Made by a program: the position numbers and the translations under genes
Notes under the pieces: model-generated
Told to the model about the DNA's origin: nothing
Seen by the model: only the letters and a program-made list of their open reading frames with translations
The model's database searches: none
From: Nitrososphaerota archaeon
Lineage (GTDB): Archaea; Thermoproteota; Bathyarchaeia; Bathyarchaeales; Bathycorpusculaceae
Length of the DNA: 35,503 nucleotides
Direction of reading: 5' to 3'
NCBI GenBank assembly: GCA_031274765.1
Contig: JAISPR010000032.1
Location: 1-35,503, forward strand
Part shown: positions 2,672 to 35,503 of the stretch, piece by piece
Layout: every line of letters starts with the position of its first letter
Numbering within the stretch: position 1 is the first letter of the stretch

Positions 2672-2931
2672 TTAGGAATTGTACAAAAATAGAGTTTTCA
2701 CTTTTAGATAGATTTGTGAGTTTTACCTCGTTAGGCTGTAAGAGAAGGAGTGAAAAGTATGGAAAAATTGAAAGTTGATGACCAAAAACGTTGACGGAAG
2801 TCTGGTAAAATTACAAAAAATGGCGTTATCTATCCATACGTGAAAACTCTAAAAATAATGCGTAAATATTTTTGCTGAAAATACATGAGGCCCCGACTAT
2901 TATCACAAGTTATTTTCATACAATTCCTTAA
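2672..2931 (+). repeat. Family-5 inverted-repeat element, interrupted copy
   Basis: The outer ends are inverted: TTAGGAATTGTAC at the left and the complement of TTAAGGAATTGTATG at the right. The right half (2852-2925; TATTTTTGCTGAAAATACAT, CCCGACTATTAT, ACAAGTTATTTT) is shared with 13170-13256 in reverse orientation. Compared with that copy, this one carries an extra block of about 159 bp at 2692-2850, annotated separately. Confidence 0.75.
2692..2850 (+). mobile_element. 159-bp nested insertion with 10-12 bp terminal inverted repeats
   Basis: The block starts GAGTTTTCAC (2692-2701) and ends GTGAAAACTC (2840-2849). It is bracketed by direct copies of AAAAATA (2685-2691 and 2851-2857), the expected footprint of target duplication. 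The related copy at 13170-13256 has a single AAAAATA at this point, i.e. an empty site. Inside, an ATG at 2759 follows AAGGAGTGAAAAGT and reads MEKLKVDDQKR, UGA, then RKSGKITKNGVIYPYVKTLK in the same frame, which looks like a broken protein start. The parent element is not recognised. Confidence 0.75.
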
Positions 2932-3007
2932 CCATTTCATACCCCTCAAACACACCAATTAACAGAATCAACCAAACTACAACTAAATTCCCCGATAAGT
3001 TATAACC

Positions 3008-4166
3008 TGAATTCTCGTCAAAGTTGTAATATACGCGGCTGAAAATTATTTGTCGCTTTTCAGCACATATCATTTATTATTTCATATTATATTCGTTTTT
3101 TGTGTGTTAACTCTTGTTTTTTATATGATAACTGCATCATAATTTTTACACATACTGTATGGTATAATTACAGACAACCTCCGAAAACACCTTTCAGAAA
3201 ACCATACTATTTGTACGGTTTTTAACAGATGATTTTGGAAAAATGTGAGTTTTCGGAGGTCACCTACACCCTACAACAAAAATGCGTATTGTAAAAAATA
3301 GTGATAACTATCACCAATACTTTAATTGAAACATTATTAGTAAAATCAAGTTAAAAGCAATACATATACATATATAGTACAAAAACACCGAGAAATTAGG
3401 TTATAACAACACTTAATGGAAAATTAACATAACATTTACATAACAAAACACCTAAAAAAACATAAATGCATTCAGCATCACACAAATATGGTCATAATTT
3501 TTATAACAACAAAATTTATTATCGAAAATAATTCCGACGTATTTAGGTCTTTTTTAACCGTTTAAAGGCTTTATCGATCCAAACATTCAAACACAGTTAC
3601 AACAAATTCGGGAATTTATGTTGGAATAACGTCATCACCGTCAGATTTTGAAACACAATCAACACGTTTATGAAGTGTATTGACATATAGAAGCATTTTG
3701 CTCAAACAATAAAGACACAATCACCTCAGCCCACCCATTAAATCGCCACCATACCACAACATTACTCCACCATAATTTTTGCATTGAATCCAAAATTTAT
3801 AAAAAAATGACCAAATATTGTTTAATTGTAGAAATAGGGTTCTTCGTAACTGAATTCTCATCGTTCTACACCATACATACACATGTATTAATTTTAACTT
3901 GATTTTATAAGTAGTGAGTCAAATAAAATATTGACTGTGGCCGACGCAAAATTTTACAACTTGTATTTTTGTTGGAGCATAATCATCATATTGAAAATAA
4001 AAATTATGATACAATCAACATATAAAAACTATCACACAAATAAAAAAGTTATTGTCTCGATTATATAAATTCGTTAACTAAAACAAACATAATGAAATAC
4101 AATAAACAATATACGTCAAAAAATAATAAATAACTTTCAGCCCCGCATATTACAATTTTAATGAGA
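3008..4166. repeat. About 80-bp inverted pair spanning 1.16 kb
   Basis: The left arm (3008-3090) begins CTGAATTCTCGTCAAAGTTG and continues through TAATATACGCGGCTGAAAA. The right arm (4088-4166), read on the minus strand, begins CTGAATTCTCATTAAAATTG and continues through TAATATGCGGGGCTGAAAG. Similarity extends about 80 bases with scattered differences. The enclosed 1 kb has no coding sequence. Either this is a decayed insertion sequence with long terminal repeats or two small elements of one family in opposite orientation. The CTGAATTCYCG terminus is shared with the element at 20311-20540. Confidence 0.65.
3177..3260. repeat. 84-bp inverted-repeat element or hairpin
   Basis: ACCTCCGAAAAC (3177-3188) and GTTTTCGGAGGT (3249-3260) are perfect 12-bp inverted copies. 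A second, imperfect inverted pair (AAACCATAC / GTACGGTTT) lies inside. There is no flanking gene within 900 bases, so a terminator role is unlikely; a small MITE-like element or a structured RNA are the options. Confidence 0.6.
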
Positions 4167-4227
4167 ATTCAGAGTCAAAACAGATTGATGGAGCCACAAA
4201 TTTCGTTGCAACATAACATCATATAAA

Positions 4228-6921: not shown

Positions 6922-7026
6922 TGTCAAATTATGGGGGTCAAAAGTTTCACTACGAGGGTGGTTGTTGGGGCATAAGGGAGAATAGCAAGTTTAGAGAAGA
7001 AATGAATGTACCCGTCTAAATAGCAA
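6922..7026 (-). repeat. Family-2 short element, copy c
   Basis: Read on the minus strand this matches 1-118 and 24872-24989 in order: GACGGGTACATTCATTTCTT, CTCTAAACTTGCTATTCTCC, CTTATG, then ACTTTTGACCCCCATAATTTG. It ends six bases before a family-1 element. Confidence 0.65.
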
Positions 7027-7031
7027 GGAGC

Positions 7032-7147
7032 GGGGGAGACTGTCTAAAAACTAGAATTTTTTGTGTTTTTGATGGAAATGGTCGGAGAAAAACCGTTCTT
7101 TTGTTATTTTTCAAGGGTTTTTGTTAGTTTTCGGACAGTCTGGGGGG
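7032..7147 (+). repeat. Family-1 element (AGACTGTC ends), copy A
   Basis: A 116-bp unit. AGACTGTCTAAAAAC (7037-7051) and GTTTTCGGACAGTCT (7127-7141) pair with one mismatch and one G-T pair. Both ends are flanked by runs of G (GGGGG left, GGGGGG right) in direct orientation. A second inner stem (AATGGT / ACCGTT) lies in the middle. It is 60 to 90 percent identical by eye to copies B, C and D. Confidence 0.85.
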
Positions 7148-7208
7148 TTTTGGGTGTGTTGGTTTGGGTTTGTTTGCTGTCAGGTAGTTGTAGTTGGTAG
7201 TTGTGGAT

Positions 7209-7323
7209 GGGGGAGACTGTCTAAAAACTAGAATTTTTTGTGTTTTTGGTGTAAACGAACGGAGAAAAACCGTTCTTTTCTTGTTTTCTGGGATTTTTGC
7301 TATTTTTCGGATAGTCTGGGGGG
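7209..7323 (+). repeat. Family-1 element, copy B
   Basis: A 115-bp unit, the same as copy A in its first 36 bases (GGGGGAGACTGTCTAAAAAC and onward). The inner stem is perfect here: GAACGG (7257-7262) and CCGTTC (7270-7275) around AGAAAAA. The outer stem is kept with a G-T pair (right end GATAGTCT). Confidence 0.85.
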
Positions 7324-7489
7324 TTTGTGGAAAATTAAATGGTGGTGATTTGTTGTATATTGTTGAGTTGGGAGTTATTTGTAGGTTGTTTCATTTTATA
7401 AATTCCGTGAATTGGGGGGTAGTGTGTTATTGGTGGTTTTATTATTTATAGTGTGTTGTGGTTTGTCAATATGTTATGGGACAAGGAGG

Positions 7490-9178: not shown

Positions 9179-9499
9179 TTGAGTACACGAACTGAAGAAA
9201 CAAAAAAAGGTAAAATGACTGTGGCAGAAGCCGGCAGGAAAGGCGGACAAAAAACAGCTTCAACTCATGGACGAGAATTCTACGAGGAAATCGGACGCAA
9301 AGGCGGAGAAAAAGTTTCAGCTGAACGAGGACCCGAATTCTACAGTGAAATCGGCAGTAAAGGCGGATCTGAGCGAGCTAAACAGCATGAAGGCACAAAA
9401 GAGGCAGAAGGCAAAACCAGTCTCGAAGAAGCAGGGCACCGCGGCGGACAACGAGTTAGGCGCCTAATTCAAGCCGGAAAGGAACATGAAACGCGATGA
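9179..9499 (+). CDS. KGG-repeat (GsiB-like) stress protein 1
   Basis: A 106-residue, very hydrophilic, Gly/Lys/Glu-rich protein made of about four KGG units of the form EAGRKGGQKTASTHGREFYEEIGRKGG. This is the repeat of bacterial general-stress protein GsiB and of the PF10685 'KGG' family, thought to act as hydrophilin or LEA-like protectants under desiccation, heat or acid. The start is TTG at 9179, fixed by AGGAGGTGA four bases upstream. No hydrophobic core, signal or membrane segment. It is the first and longest of six paralogs read in the same direction. Confidence 0.85.
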   Translation: MSTRTEETKKGKMTVAEAGRKGGQKTASTHGREFYEEIGRKGGEKVSAERGPEFYSEIGSKGGSERAKQHEGTKEAEGKTSLEEAGHRGGQRVRRLIQAGKEHETR

Positions 9500-9560
9500 T
9501 CAGAGTCGTAACATTTGTTCCTCTACCTTAACTTTTAATCTTTGAGATGGAGGTGAATTT

Positions 9561-9749
9561 TTGGACGAAAAAAAAGGAAGAATGACTGTAGAAGAGGCGG
9601 GTCGTAGAGGTGGATTAAAAACAGCTTCGACCCATGGAGAAGAATTTTACAGTGAAATTGGACGCAAAGGCGGAAAAATTGGAGGACCAAAAGGAGGACA
9701 GCGTGTCCGCAAACTCATCCAAGAAGGAAAAAAACATGAACCACGATAG
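9561..9749 (+). CDS. KGG-repeat (GsiB-like) protein 2
   Basis: A 62-residue protein: a charged start (MDEKKGRMTVEEAGRRGG), one full THGEEFYSEIGRKGG unit and a basic tail QRVRKLIQEGKKHEPR. TTG start at 9561 with GGAGGTGA at 9549-9556, four bases upstream as in its paralogs. The 61-base gap to gene 1 suggests co-transcription. Confidence 0.82.
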   Translation: MDEKKGRMTVEEAGRRGGLKTASTHGEEFYSEIGRKGGKIGGPKGGQRVRKLIQEGKKHEPR

Positions 9750-9915
9750 TTTTCAAGGTTTAGTTTGTTTTTATTTTTGTCTATCGTAAACATTTGAATC
9801 TAATAGTTACTGTTGCTGTACATGAATAGCCACATACGTTTAAGAATAATGTTTGAAGCTATACAACTGGAAAAAGAGCAAAGCGACGGTCTAACTTTTT
9901 TTGGAGGTGAAATGA

Positions 9916-10167
9916 TTGAACGATGACAAAAGGCGAGGTAAGATGACTGTGGCAGAAGCAGGCCGCCTTGGAGGAGAAAAAACCGCTACAACTCATGGAC
10001 CCGAATTCTACAGTGAAATCGGCAGTAAGGGAGGTAACAGGAGAGCACTCCAACATGAAGGCACTCGTGCAGCTGAGGGCAAAACTAGCCTTGAGGAAGC
10101 AGGGCACCGCGGCGGACAACGAGTTAAGAGACTGATTCAAGAAGGCAAGCACTATGAGGACGAATAA
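9916..10167 (+). CDS. KGG-repeat (GsiB-like) protein 3
   Basis: An 83-residue protein with two KGG units, an insert with RALQHEGTRAAEGKTSLEEA, and the basic tail QRVKRLIQEGKHYEDE. The start is TTG at 9916, after GGAGGTGA (9903-9910); the nearby ATG at 9912 is out of frame and stops after four codons. The 80 bases 9943-10022 are the same as 10463-10542 in protein 5, and the tail region matches gene 1, so the gene is a mosaic of its neighbours. The 166-base gap before it may contain a separate promoter (TTTAAGAATA near 9840). Confidence 0.82.
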   Translation: MNDDKRRGKMTVAEAGRLGGEKTATTHGPEFYSEIGSKGGNRRALQHEGTRAAEGKTSLEEAGHRGGQRVKRLIQEGKHYEDE

Positions 10168-10222
10168 CTGGGGCTCTTTTGAAAAATAGTCAACTGATAG
10201 AGTTTTAAGAGGAGGTGAGGTG

Positions 10223-10405
10223 TTGGTTGATTGTCAAAAGAAGGGGACGATGAGTGTTGAAGAAGCTGGGCGCTTAGGTGGACAAAAAGGCGGACGGAGG
10301 ACAGCAGAAACTCATGGTAGAGAATTCTATGAGACGATAGGACATAAAGGTGGGCAAAAAGTTCGAAGGCTTGTCCAGCAAGGAAAGACATACGAAGATA
10401 GATAA
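10223..10405 (+). CDS. KGG-repeat (GsiB-like) protein 4
   Basis: A 60-residue protein: MVDCQKKGTMSVEEAGRLGG, a duplicated KGG, a THGREFYETIGHKGG unit and the tail QKVRRLVQQGKTYEDR. I choose TTG at 10223 over the GTG at 10220 because it keeps the four-base spacing from GGAGGTGA (10211-10218) seen in the other paralogs. It carries a cysteine, unusual in this family. Confidence 0.8.
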   Translation: MVDCQKKGTMSVEEAGRLGGQKGGRRTAETHGREFYETIGHKGGQKVRRLVQQGKTYEDR

Positions 10406-10438
10406 TTTTTTTACAGGTTAATCATAGGAGGTGAATGT

Positions 10439-10600
10439 TTGTCTGATAAAAGAAAAGGTAAAATGACTGTGGCAGAAGCAGGCCGCCTTGGAGGAGAAAA
10501 AACCGCTACAACTCATGGACCCGAATTCTACAGTGAAATCGGGCATAAAGGAGGTCAAAAAGTAAAGAAGCTCATCGCAGAAGGCAAACAATACGAATAA
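10439..10600 (+). CDS. KGG-repeat (GsiB-like) protein 5, 53 aa
   Basis: A small gene easily missed by length cut-offs: TTG at 10439, stop TAA at 10598-10600, with GGAGGTGA at 10427-10434 and the usual four-base spacer. The product begins MSDKRKGKMTVAEAGRLGG, has one THGPEFYSEIGHKGG unit and ends VKKLIAEGKQYE. Bases 10463-10542 are the same as 9943-10022 of gene 3. Confidence 0.8.
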   Translation: MSDKRKGKMTVAEAGRLGGEKTATTHGPEFYSEIGHKGGQKVKKLIAEGKQYE

Positions 10601-10661
10601 GAATAATCGATGAGTAGGTTCTTTTTTTATTTTTTAGCACTAAAATTTGGAGGTGGAAGCA

Positions 10662-10943
10662 ATGAGTGGACAAATCATAGATACCCGCCGTAAAGGAATT
10701 GGTCAAGGTCGAGGTTCAAGGAAGCAGTATACAAACAGAGCCGGAAGATCAGGTCATGTCAGTCCAGCGATTGTTGTAAAATATCTCAAGGGTATGGGTT
10801 ATCCGGTAAATAAAAAGACCATGATAAGCAGTGCCCAAAGCAAAGATGCGACTGAGGATGTTATAGATTTGATCTCTAAACTGCCCGATAAAACATACAA
10901 TTCACCCATTGACATAACAAAAGAAATAGGTAAAATAGAATAG
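10662..10943 (+). CDS. DUF2795-domain protein
   Basis: A 93-residue basic protein. The N-terminal 30 residues are Gly/Arg-rich (RRKGIGQGRGSRKQYTNRAGR). The rest fits DUF2795: AIVVKYLKGMGYPVNKKTMI, a helical middle, then LISKLPDKTYNSPIDITKEI. DUF2795 proteins are small, of unknown function, and common in bacteria. Start is ATG at 10662 with GGAGGTG at 10649-10655; an in-frame TTG at 10647 would overlap the ribosome-binding site. It sits inside the KGG cluster (61 bases after protein 5), so it may share stress induction. Confidence 0.78.
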   Translation: MSGQIIDTRRKGIGQGRGSRKQYTNRAGRSGHVSPAIVVKYLKGMGYPVNKKTMISSAQSKDATEDVIDLISKLPDKTYNSPIDITKEIGKIE

Positions 10944-11030
10944 CATTGTCCGTTAGTTCAAATCAGCTTAAAATTTTACAGGGAAAATTTGTGTGAACCA
11001 ATGACACAAACATTAGAGAAACATCATGAG

Positions 11031-11076
11031 AACCCCTACGCGGATAATAGCACTATGATAGGGGTTTGTTATTTTA
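11031..11076 (+). terminator. Hairpin followed by T-rich tract
   Basis: AACCCCTA (11031-11038) and TAGGGGTT (11059-11066) form an 8-bp stem with a 20-base loop, followed by TGTTATTTT. It lies after the DUF2795 gene and before the last KGG gene, consistent with a transcript end. Confidence 0.45.
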
Positions 11077-11167
11077 GGCGTTAGGTTCTTGATGTTTGGT
11101 ATTTGTTTGCGGCTCTTTGGAGTCTACAGTTGAGTTGTTAGTAGAGAATTTTGTGGGAGGTGATTTT

Positions 11168-11383
11168 TTGGTAGATGAAAAGAAAAAAAAGATGACCCGG
11201 CAGGAAGCGGGTAAAAAAGGCGGTGAAAAGGTTGCTCGAGAAAGGGGAACCGAATTTTATCGCGAGATAGGCCGTATAGGTGGAGAAAAAGTGGCCGCCC
11301 AACGCGGGACAGAATATTATAAAAAAATTGGTAAAAAAGGCGGCGAGAAACGTAAAAAAAGTCTTGAAAAACGCAAAACATAA
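11168..11383 (+). CDS. KGG-repeat (GsiB-like) protein 6
   Basis: A 71-residue Lys/Arg-rich member with three regular units (EAGKKGGEKVARERGTEFYREIGRIGG and on), ending EKRKKSLEKRKT. It diverges more from the others and its repeats are closest to bacterial GsiB. TTG start at 11168 follows GGGAGGTGA (11155-11163) by four bases; a longer in-frame start at 11096 would ignore that site. It is separated from the rest by a hairpin and about 220 bases, so it probably has its own promoter. Confidence 0.82.
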   Translation: MVDEKKKKMTRQEAGKKGGEKVARERGTEFYREIGRIGGEKVAAQRGTEYYKKIGKKGGEKRKKSLEKRKT

Positions 11384-13169: not shown

Positions 13170-13256
13170 GGAACTGTATAAAAATAACTTGTAATAATAG
13201 TCGGGAATTACATGTATTTTCAGCAAAAATAATTACACACTATTTTTGCACAGCCC
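13170..13256 (-). repeat. Family-5 element, short intact copy
   Basis: An 87-bp unit with inverted ends GGAACTGTATAAAAATA and the complement of GGGCTGTGCAAAAATA. Its body matches 2852-2925 in reverse orientation (TATTTTCAGCAAAAATAATT region, AATAATAGTCGGGAAT). It lacks the 159-bp block present in the other copy and so serves as the empty site. It ends one base before the stop codon of the leftward regulator gene. Confidence 0.75.
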
Positions 13257-13257
13257 A

Positions 13258-16021: not shown

Positions 16022-17070
16022 TAAACAATTATGAGCGGTATTTTACCCGCCGGTTTTCTTATATGCCTTTCTGTTTAGGAACATTTTTGAAACCCCCCAC
16101 AAACACAGTTACCCACAGACAACACAAAATATGGGAACACAAAACAATTTCGCAAAAAACCAACATTAAACTTGGTAACATTAACTAAAAATAAAACCAA
16201 AATAAAACAAGACTATAGAACCAAAACACCCAAACTATTGTCCCTATCTGATTCTTCGACACAAACATGAATGGAATTAACCAGTCCTAAACAGTTGCTC
16301 TTACACTGCACGCAACACATCACAGCATCAATATAAATCCACGTGAATCAGTAAACATCCAACCAGATTATCATTGAGCATGCGGGCAAGTCCATTCAAG
16401 ATTAACCATTTACCCACTTGGAATCTCATGAACCCTATTACCTACTCACCAAGAACCCAAAGACTACACCAAATCTTTAGCTTACAAAAGACTTACTCAC
16501 ATTTGGCAGTTTGGAAAAAAATACTTTGAATTATTTATATTGCAGGTTGTTGCGAGTTTTTGGTTATTTTTACAATGTTGTCTTATTTTCCAAATATTTT
16601 TAGGGGACAATTTAATTTTGACTATTTTAGGTCAAACTACCAAAAGTTATTACTTTGTCAAACAAAAAATTATTCAACCCACCGCATACACAATCCCGCA
16701 AGCCCAAATATTTGCCTTACACAACAGCCAACAAAGAACACTTACGACACAACTTTTAGCGTAGCTACAAACACACCTCAGCATATTCATCATTTAAGTG
16801 CCTTACAAAAAACAGAAATAATCTCGCCACCACTCTATCGATTCTGCATATTACTTAGCACACTACATTAAACCTCCACAGATAAATACTGCCACACACC
16901 ACAGCCAACATTTACTCAAAAACTTCCCCACCAACCAGCCACCAAAAACCAACCACTAACAACCCAAACAACACACCAAAAAATACAACAACCCAAAAAA
17001 CTAAACCACCTCACCCGCACACAGATAAATTATAAGTACCCAACCAACACTAATATGTATAGACAACAAT
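16022..17070. other. Gene-free spacer upstream of metK and the DUF4443-like gene
   Basis: About 1 kb. It contains the metK promoter, a family-3 element (16499-16647), and from about 16870 to 17030 an A+C-rich, almost G-free plus strand. Two open frames over the family-3 element (16540-16871) are not protein-like. A TATA-like box (ATAAATTATAAG) at 17024-17035 precedes the gene at 17071. Confidence 0.55.
16499..16647 (+). repeat. Family-3 element, copy A
   Basis: About 149 bp with inverted ends ACATTTGGCAGTTT and the complement of ACTTTTGGTAGTTT. Its body (GAATTATTTATATTGCAGGT, TTTTTGGTTATTTTTACAAT, AAATATTTTTAGGGGACAAT) is shared with 21669-21821 and, reversed, 35233-35384. Confidence 0.8.
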
Positions 17071-21617: not shown

Positions 21618-21668
21618 GTATTAAAAACTACGGAAACCCGCAATAAGTTAAAAATAAAAAGTACATAC

Positions 21669-21821
21669 TGACATTCGGCAGTTTGGGAAAAAAATACCTG
21701 AATTATTTATATTACAGGTTGTTGCGTGTTTTTGGTTATTTTTACAATATTTTTCTTATTTTTCAAATATTTTTTGAGCATGATTTAATTTTTGGCCGTG
21801 TTGTGTCAAATTGCCGAATGT
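21669..21821 (+). mobile_element. Family-3 element, copy B, with 10-bp target duplication
   Basis: 153 bp with inverted ends ACATTCGGCAGTTT (21671-21684) and the complement of ACATTCGGCAATTT (21808-21821). It is bracketed by direct AAGTACATAC copies at 21659-21668 and 21822-21831. The right flank ends one base before the stop codon of carS (21833-21835), so insertion was at the very end of that gene. No coding capacity. Confidence 0.85.
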
Positions 21822-21832
21822 AAGTACATACA

Positions 21833-23786: not shown

Positions 23787-23843
23787 CCCCCCCCCACAAC
23801 TTTACCCCAACCCCACAAAAACACAACCCACACAACACCCCCA

Positions 23844-23958
23844 CCCCCCAGACTATCCGAAAATTAACACAAATCCCAGAAAACAAGAAAAGAACTGTTT
23901 TTCTCCACCCGTTTCCGCCAAAAACACAAAAAGTTCTAGTTTTCAGACAGTCTCCCCC
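23844..23958 (-). repeat. Family-1 element, copy C
   Basis: A 115-bp reverse-orientation copy. Read on the minus strand it starts GGGGGAGACTGTCTGAAAAC and ends TTTTCGGATAGTCTGGGGGG. Compared with copies A and B, an outer-stem A-C mismatch is here a G-C pair, so the stem is improved. Confidence 0.85.
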
Positions 23959-24360
23959 ACAAAAAACCAAGGAACACAAAACTCAACCCGCACCCTAAAT
24001 CCACAATGACATAAATCACAAAAAAACAAAAAACAAACCCAACAACCCCACACCCACAAAACAACAAACAACACACACCCACAAACAACACACACACCAC
24101 CACACCAAACACCCCACAACACAAACACACCAACACCTAAAAACTCATCACCCCTAAACCCCCAAACAACAACTCAATCAACCCCACCACATCACCAAAC
24201 CCCCAAAAAACCACACTAAACAACCAATTACCAAAATAACCCAAAACACCACCCCATAACGATTAACAAACATATCAACAACCCTTACCACATACACATT
24301 TCCTGACCACCCACCAACCAAACAATCTATCAAACACACCCACAACATCACCTCTAACAA

Positions 24361-24855: not shown

Positions 24856-24989
24856 GGCCTTTCGCCATTTTAGGTAGGTGCACTCATTCTTTCTTCTTTA
24901 AACTTATGTTCTCCCTTAATGCTCCATACAACATTATACCGCAACAAAACTTATTGACCCCCCCCCCACCTAATTTAACGAATAACCGC
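24856..24989 (+). repeat. Family-2 short element, copy b
   Basis: The most complete copy: GGCCTTTCGCCATTTTAGGT, TAGGTGCACTCATTCTTTCT, the GTTCTCCCTTAATGCTCCAT block, CCGCAACAAAACTTATTGA, a run of C, then CACCTAATTTAACGAATAACC. It lies between the transposase pseudogene and a truncated ABC-ATPase fragment. Confidence 0.8.
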
Positions 24990-31035: not shown

Positions 31036-31284
31036 TTGTTTCTTTCTCGAAGGTTGGGGGGGTTATCAATATTTTGGTAGTTAGGCATCTACAATAAACA
31101 GTTTTGGATGTATAAAAACAACATAGTTTTATCAACATTGGAATTTTTTAGCCGTGTATTTTTTGTTGTGTGAAATGTTGTTGTGTAGTTGTAATTCAGT
31201 TGTGCAGTTGTTTGTTAGTTATGATATGCAGGGTTTTTATGTGTTGCAAGTTTGGGTATGATTTAGTTTAGGGGTTTTTGAGTT

Positions 31285-31390
31285 GGGAGACTGTTTGAAA
31301 ACTAGAATTTTTCGTGTTTTTGGAGGAAACGGGCGAAGAAAAGCGGTTTTTTCTTGTTTTCCGAGGTTTTTATTGTTTTTCGGACAGACT
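31285..31390 (+). repeat. Family-1 element, copy D (diverged)
   Basis: About 106 bp: GGGAGACTGTTTGAAAACTA at the left, TTTTTCGGACAGACT at the right, with a middle resembling the other copies (GAAACGGGCGAAGAAAAGCG). The outer stem is preserved through G-C and G-T pairs except one position. Confidence 0.75.
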
Positions 31391-35129: not shown

Positions 35130-35503
35130 CAACAAATTGCAAATACAAGCCACGATAAAAAGTAGCATTTTAGGTAGCTATAAATTAACAGCCGAGGCGA
35201 CATAGCTTTAGTGGAAGAAAAAGGTGTTACTTACATTCGGCAGTTTAACCTAAAACAGTCAAAAATTAAATCATGCTCAAAAAATATTCGAAAAAATAAG
35301 AAAATCATCGTAAACATAACCAAAAACACGCAACAACCGGTAATATAAACAATTCAAAATATTTTTTTCCCAAACTGTCAAACGTGAGTTGTTAATCTTT
35401 TTGGAGGTTTTTTAAAAATTCCAAACCATAGGGATAACTCAAAACATGGATGTATACACCTGAATTGTGCCCAACACATGTAGTGAGATATTTAACAGCA
35501 AAC
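35130..35503. other. Spacer after ftsY, to window end
   Basis: About 370 bases without a gene. It holds a family-3 element at 35233-35384. No further feature is recognisable before the window ends. Confidence 0.6.
35233..35384 (-). repeat. Family-3 element, copy C
   Basis: About 152 bp in reverse orientation. Left end ACATTCGGCAGTTT is intact; the right end reads ACGTTTGACAGTTT on the minus strand. The body matches 21669-21821 reversed (AAATCATGCTCAAAAAATAT, AACCAAAAACACGCAACAAC). Target duplication is not evident. Confidence 0.8.

Follow-up and report, generated by a model that had tools for sequence, protein, structure and literature searches.

An IS1-type MITE nested in an ISAzo13-type MITE in a Bathyarchaeia genome

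The interrupted element and its surroundings

The window analysed here, a stretch of 35,503 nucleotides, is one contig (C47) of a 2.5-Mb, 170-contig MAG that is 95.6% complete. The host is a gut archaeon whose genus is very probably Candidatus Bathycorpusculum (Bathyarchaeia), and a search of named genomes with the IS1 protein of a sister genome found its best matches, including one at 100%, in MAGs of Candidatus Bathycorpusculum. Comparison with 60 genomes of relatives confined all matches to the two elements described below to this same genus.

The outer unit occupies 2675–2927 on the forward strand, where it starts GGAATTGTACAAAAAT and ends ACAATTCC, with TTA on either side (2672–2674 and 2928–2930), taken as its 3-bp target duplication from the sequence and from the TNA flanks seen in the genus. 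Its left end, GGAATTGTACAAAAATA, is common to full-length ISAzo13-family IS ends and runs from 2675 to the insertion point at 2691. The last eight positions of this stretch (2684–2691) form the left copy, CAAAAATA, of the inner target duplication, as deduced from seven sister insertions and an empty site on contig C148. The inner block, GAGTTTTCAC...GTGAAAACTC, follows at 2692–2849, also on the forward strand, and is delimited by copies in its own and a sister genome and by the right end of IS1-family ISs. The right copy of the duplication, TAAAAATA, one substitution away from the left copy, lies at 2850–2857, and the rest of the outer unit at 2858–2927, as evidenced by comparison of copies. 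An uninterrupted outer unit is found on the reverse strand of the same window at 13170–13257, one of its ends being decayed with GCCCA in place of GTTCC.

A third repeat family (CCTGAATTCTC..GAGAAATTAGG), with 41 matches in the genome, lies at 3005–3406 and is itself interrupted by a 92-bp MITE at 3173–3264, GACAACCTCCGAAAAC..GTTTTCGGAGGTCACC, flanked by an exact TACA/TACA. This second nest, ~250 bp downstream of the first, is separate and cleaner: all five third-family copies aligned here lack the insert and have one TACA or TATA at this point, a further five count as empty on match coordinates, and the 92-bp unit also stands alone at six other places, in several of them between 4-bp duplications that contain TA. 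A related element lies in reversed orientation at 3850–4171 (CTGAATTCTC...GAGAATTCAG), so that at least five miniature elements, including two nested ones, are clustered within 2672–4171. Further repeat families are dispersed over the window, one at 7023–7324, 23843–23968 and 31273–31371, another at 16483–16579, 21655–21826 and 35215–35400, and one more at 1–98 and 24871–24965; some have copies in both orientations, and these families are probably other miniature elements. At 9179–11383 lies a group of small, diverged genes with many KGG-type repeats (..GRKGGEK..).

Empty sites and the length of the target duplication

The outer unit, called family 5 in an earlier note on this DNA, is an 88-bp MITE with eight copies in its own genome. 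The block is present solely in the window copy; the other seven are uninterrupted, as are all 13 complete same-genus copies in other genomes, and these copies measure 86–89 bp (87–89 bp for the 13), compared to 253 bp in the window. Two more same-genus elements with the ends of the outer unit are 100 and 131 bp long. The earlier note had read the interruption as transposition of the inner element and had named the block in all other family-5 copies as the finding that would speak against it; none of the seven own-genome and 13 same-genus copies has the block. Together with the solo copies of the block, its IS1 ends and the 8-bp duplications of its sisters, described below, these empty sites establish the insertion.

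At the junctions the sequence reads as the earlier note had claimed, with AAAAATA at 2685–2691 and again at 2851–2857 bracketing the inverted-ended block, and the reverse-strand copy, given there as 13170–13256, indeed has one AAAAATA at the insertion point. That copy is uninterrupted and so a true empty site, but it was not the best comparator. The nearest relatives of the window outer copy are on contigs C139 and C148, and the latter reads CTGTACAAAAATAATGCG at the insertion point, which corresponds exactly to the window flanks minus the block and one repeat; judged by these letters, the C148 copy is the better empty-site comparator. Relative to it, 166 nucleotides were added at the window.

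The length of the duplication was defined from several insertions, as the note had proposed. IS1-family elements duplicate 8–9 bp of their target. Comparison of all end pairs gave exact 8-bp flanking duplications in seven sister IS1-type MITEs of 159–163 bp, namely CATGATAT and TTCGCAAA in G002, ACTTCAAG and GACATTCT in G012, GAAAAAGT in G008, AAAAAGTG in G010 and AAAAATTC on contig C69 of the own genome. These MITEs were used in place of the full-length 785–786 bp IS1 copies, at which one near match (7 nt, one mismatch) and otherwise no duplication was found. The C102 copy of the inner block is flanked by AAACTATT/AAATTATT. The AAAAATA repeat itself stands, but its 7 bp were rejected as the length of the duplication on comparison with the sister copies, and since these show exactly 8 bp, the window duplication, 8 bp with one mismatch, is best read as CAAAAATA/TAAAAATA with one substitution or with slightly eroded ends. 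The 166 added nucleotides then give an element of 158 nt (2692–2849); counting 12-nt canonical ends gives 162 nt (2690–2851), a reading (162 + 8 = 170) that needs four nucleotides lost at the junctions.

Transposase families behind the two sets of ends

The inner block has perfect 10-nt inverted ends, GAGTTTTCAC at 2692–2701 and GTGAAAACTC at 2840–2849, which continue imperfectly over 24 nt. The genome search suggested in the earlier note returned the block with E=4e-51 (88% identity) and E=8e-23, as a near-complete copy on C102 (88%) and degraded copies on C148, C149 and C72, and it is also found in the sister genome G026. It thus occurs without the outer element, and the flanks of the C102 and C47 copies are unrelated to each other. 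The nest is not a chance observation, given that further copies of the block exist in the genome and that the outer unit is present eight times.

Matches limited to the last 43 nt of the block in G002, G004, G008, G010 and G015 could be identified as right ends of IS1-family ISs, at which the frame terminates ..RFTRRTKVVSKCDTMVDTSLKLWKNLTTPDVFTQIQTIALSPYR and the DNA terminates GTGAAAACTCTC. Complete copies of these ISs are 785–786 bp long, with GAGAGTCTTCAC ends matching at 22 of 24 positions, and carry two frames overlapping at a run of A. Compared to the 786-bp IS, the first 23 nt of the inner MITE are up to 91% identical and its last 43 nt 79% identical, which assigns its ends to the IS1 family. 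A remnant IS on C28 of the own genome matches PF03400 (E=8e-14). By blastn, which matched the ends only, the middle of the block has no similarity to any IS found, and the inner MITE therefore did not arise from a known IS by simple internal deletion. Sharing of ends only is common among MITEs; it weakens a claim of direct descent and leaves the assignment of the ends intact. An intact IS1-family transposase was not found in the own genome, where the search gave only the truncated C28 copy with a stop, a divergent match on C71 (38%) and a fragment on C110. An ATG behind a GGAG-like motif in the inner block was considered as a transposase start and rejected, given that its frame closes after 11 codons in both the window and the C102 copy and does not correspond to the IS. 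Exact-pattern scans of viral contigs for the inner and outer elements gave nothing.

In G027, one sister IS1 copy (L075, 584–1682, contig C75) measures 1099 bp and is interrupted by ~313 bp (CCTGAATTCT..AGAATTCAGG ends), an insert that resembles the window's third repeat family. Many contigs of G010, G008 and G002 end 65–120 bp from the end of an IS1-type element, which suggests that near-identical, recently spread IS1-type elements break the assemblies of sister MAGs.

For the outer unit, a 1297-bp IS in G027 has the ends of the MITE, TAA/TAA flanks and a 399-codon frame matching PF07592, the profile of the ISAzo13-family transposase, at E=2e-127. The two elements have ~30 nt in common at both ends; identity amounts to 90% across 30 nt for one end and 83% across 29 nt for the other. 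Further complete ISAzo13-type elements were found in G021 (TTA/TTA) and G002 (TAA/TAA). Among the 31 pairs of outer-unit ends in the genus, full-length ISs included, the 3-nt flanks on the two sides agree in 17, each time as TNA, demonstrating a consistent 3-bp target duplication. A search of the own genome for an intact ISAzo13-family transposase found none, only five partial frames (C90, C95, C129, C143 and C148). An exact-pattern search for the outer end in genome contigs, a set from which records near the own genome were possibly excluded, gave no match.

The combination recurs in a second species, on contig C166 of G002, where a complete ISAzo13 element between TAA/TAA flanks contains, 48 bp in from its end, an IS1-type MITE bearing exact CATGATAT duplications; with this insert the element measures 1477 bp, made up of ~1307 bp and 170 nt of MITE and duplication. 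Together with the window, this means that an IS1-type MITE has nested in an ISAzo13 element at least twice in the genus. It is very unlikely, on the insertions compared, that the IS1-type MITEs of the genus prefer AT-rich ISAzo13-type ends as targets and regularly break them; the hints of such a preference are the window, the G002 insertion, which lies 48 bp into an IS end, and an insertion on C87 of G026 at ~30 bp from an outer MITE.

Order of events and relation to known elements

We are highly confident that the locus is a nested MITE pair. An 88-bp ISAzo13-type MITE inserted first, at a TTA target, and an IS1-type MITE of ~160 bp later entered it at a point 17 bp from its end, where about 8 bp of target (CAAAAATA) were duplicated; the nesting fixes which of the two came first. 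The outer MITE would have been moved in trans by an ISAzo13-family enzyme, and the inner one by an IS1-family enzyme, each recognising the respective ends. Intact transposases of both families would have been present at the time of the insertions; we infer this past presence, since only fragments of both remain in the assembly. Against the nest stand the imperfect duplication in the window, which is exact over 6–7 nt or has one mismatch in 8 nt, and the outermost base pair of the inner copy, T/A versus G/C in its sisters, so that junction decay must be assumed. The interior of the inner element, dissimilar to any IS found, and the failure to find an intact transposase of either family in the assembly also count against it.

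Excision of the block together with one repeat, from an ancestral family-5 element that once held it, would look identical in any single pairwise comparison. That the short outer copies are such deletions is nevertheless hardly credible, considering that seven scattered own-genome copies and 13 copies from other species share the 86–89 bp length, and that the block has copies outside the outer element and transposon ends of its own. It is highly improbable that recombination between repeats, or misassembly of the MAG, placed the block here: although the assembly is in 170 contigs and many contigs of sister MAGs end inside IS1-type MITEs, transposon ends and a near-duplicated target delimit the block, and its distance of 12% from the nearest relative makes a collapsed repeat unlikely. 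Finally, the block might be only a piece, or the cargo, of some longer element, given that it has only its ends in common with the IS1-family ISs found; however, both inverted ends are present, the block recurs as a ~160 bp unit with unrelated flanks on C102 and C47, and its 159–163 bp sisters show exact 8-bp duplications, which leaves next to no probability for this explanation.

The nested pair suggests the action of at least two different transposase families on non-coding elements of the Candidatus Bathycorpusculum group, the relative order being given by the nest, and the boundaries of the elements and the lengths of their duplications (8 bp; TNA) should help to annotate MAGs in which such MITEs coincide with contig breaks. 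Nested MITEs are a known phenomenon and arise by an ordinary process, of which the window case is a clear-cut instance; the understanding of transposition is unchanged by it. The limited literature searched gave no description of an IS1-type and ISAzo13-type MITE pairing in Bathyarchaeia, and no MITE report for Bathyarchaeia; the host is one difference of the inner MITE from known IS1-family ISs and their MITEs.

The inner MITE is similar to IS1-family ISs in its ends, shared with the 785–786 bp elements (PF03400), and in the 8-bp duplication of its sister copies, and differs from them in having no coding capacity and an interior unrelated to the IS copies seen. The sister ISs themselves show the same two-frame overlap around an A-run as InsA/InsB of IS1. 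Likewise, the outer MITE resembles ISAzo13-family ISs in its ~30-nt ends and 3-bp TNA flanks, and differs in being an 88-bp non-coding element whose own genome holds transposase fragments only. In PMC3852290, IS1 and ISAzo13 are absent from the portion consulted of the table of new archaeal MITEs, and nested ('Russian doll') elements are an expected, routine class of the archaeal MITE pipeline; the archaeal MITEs described there are like the present pair in being short and non-coding, with IS-like ends and target duplications.
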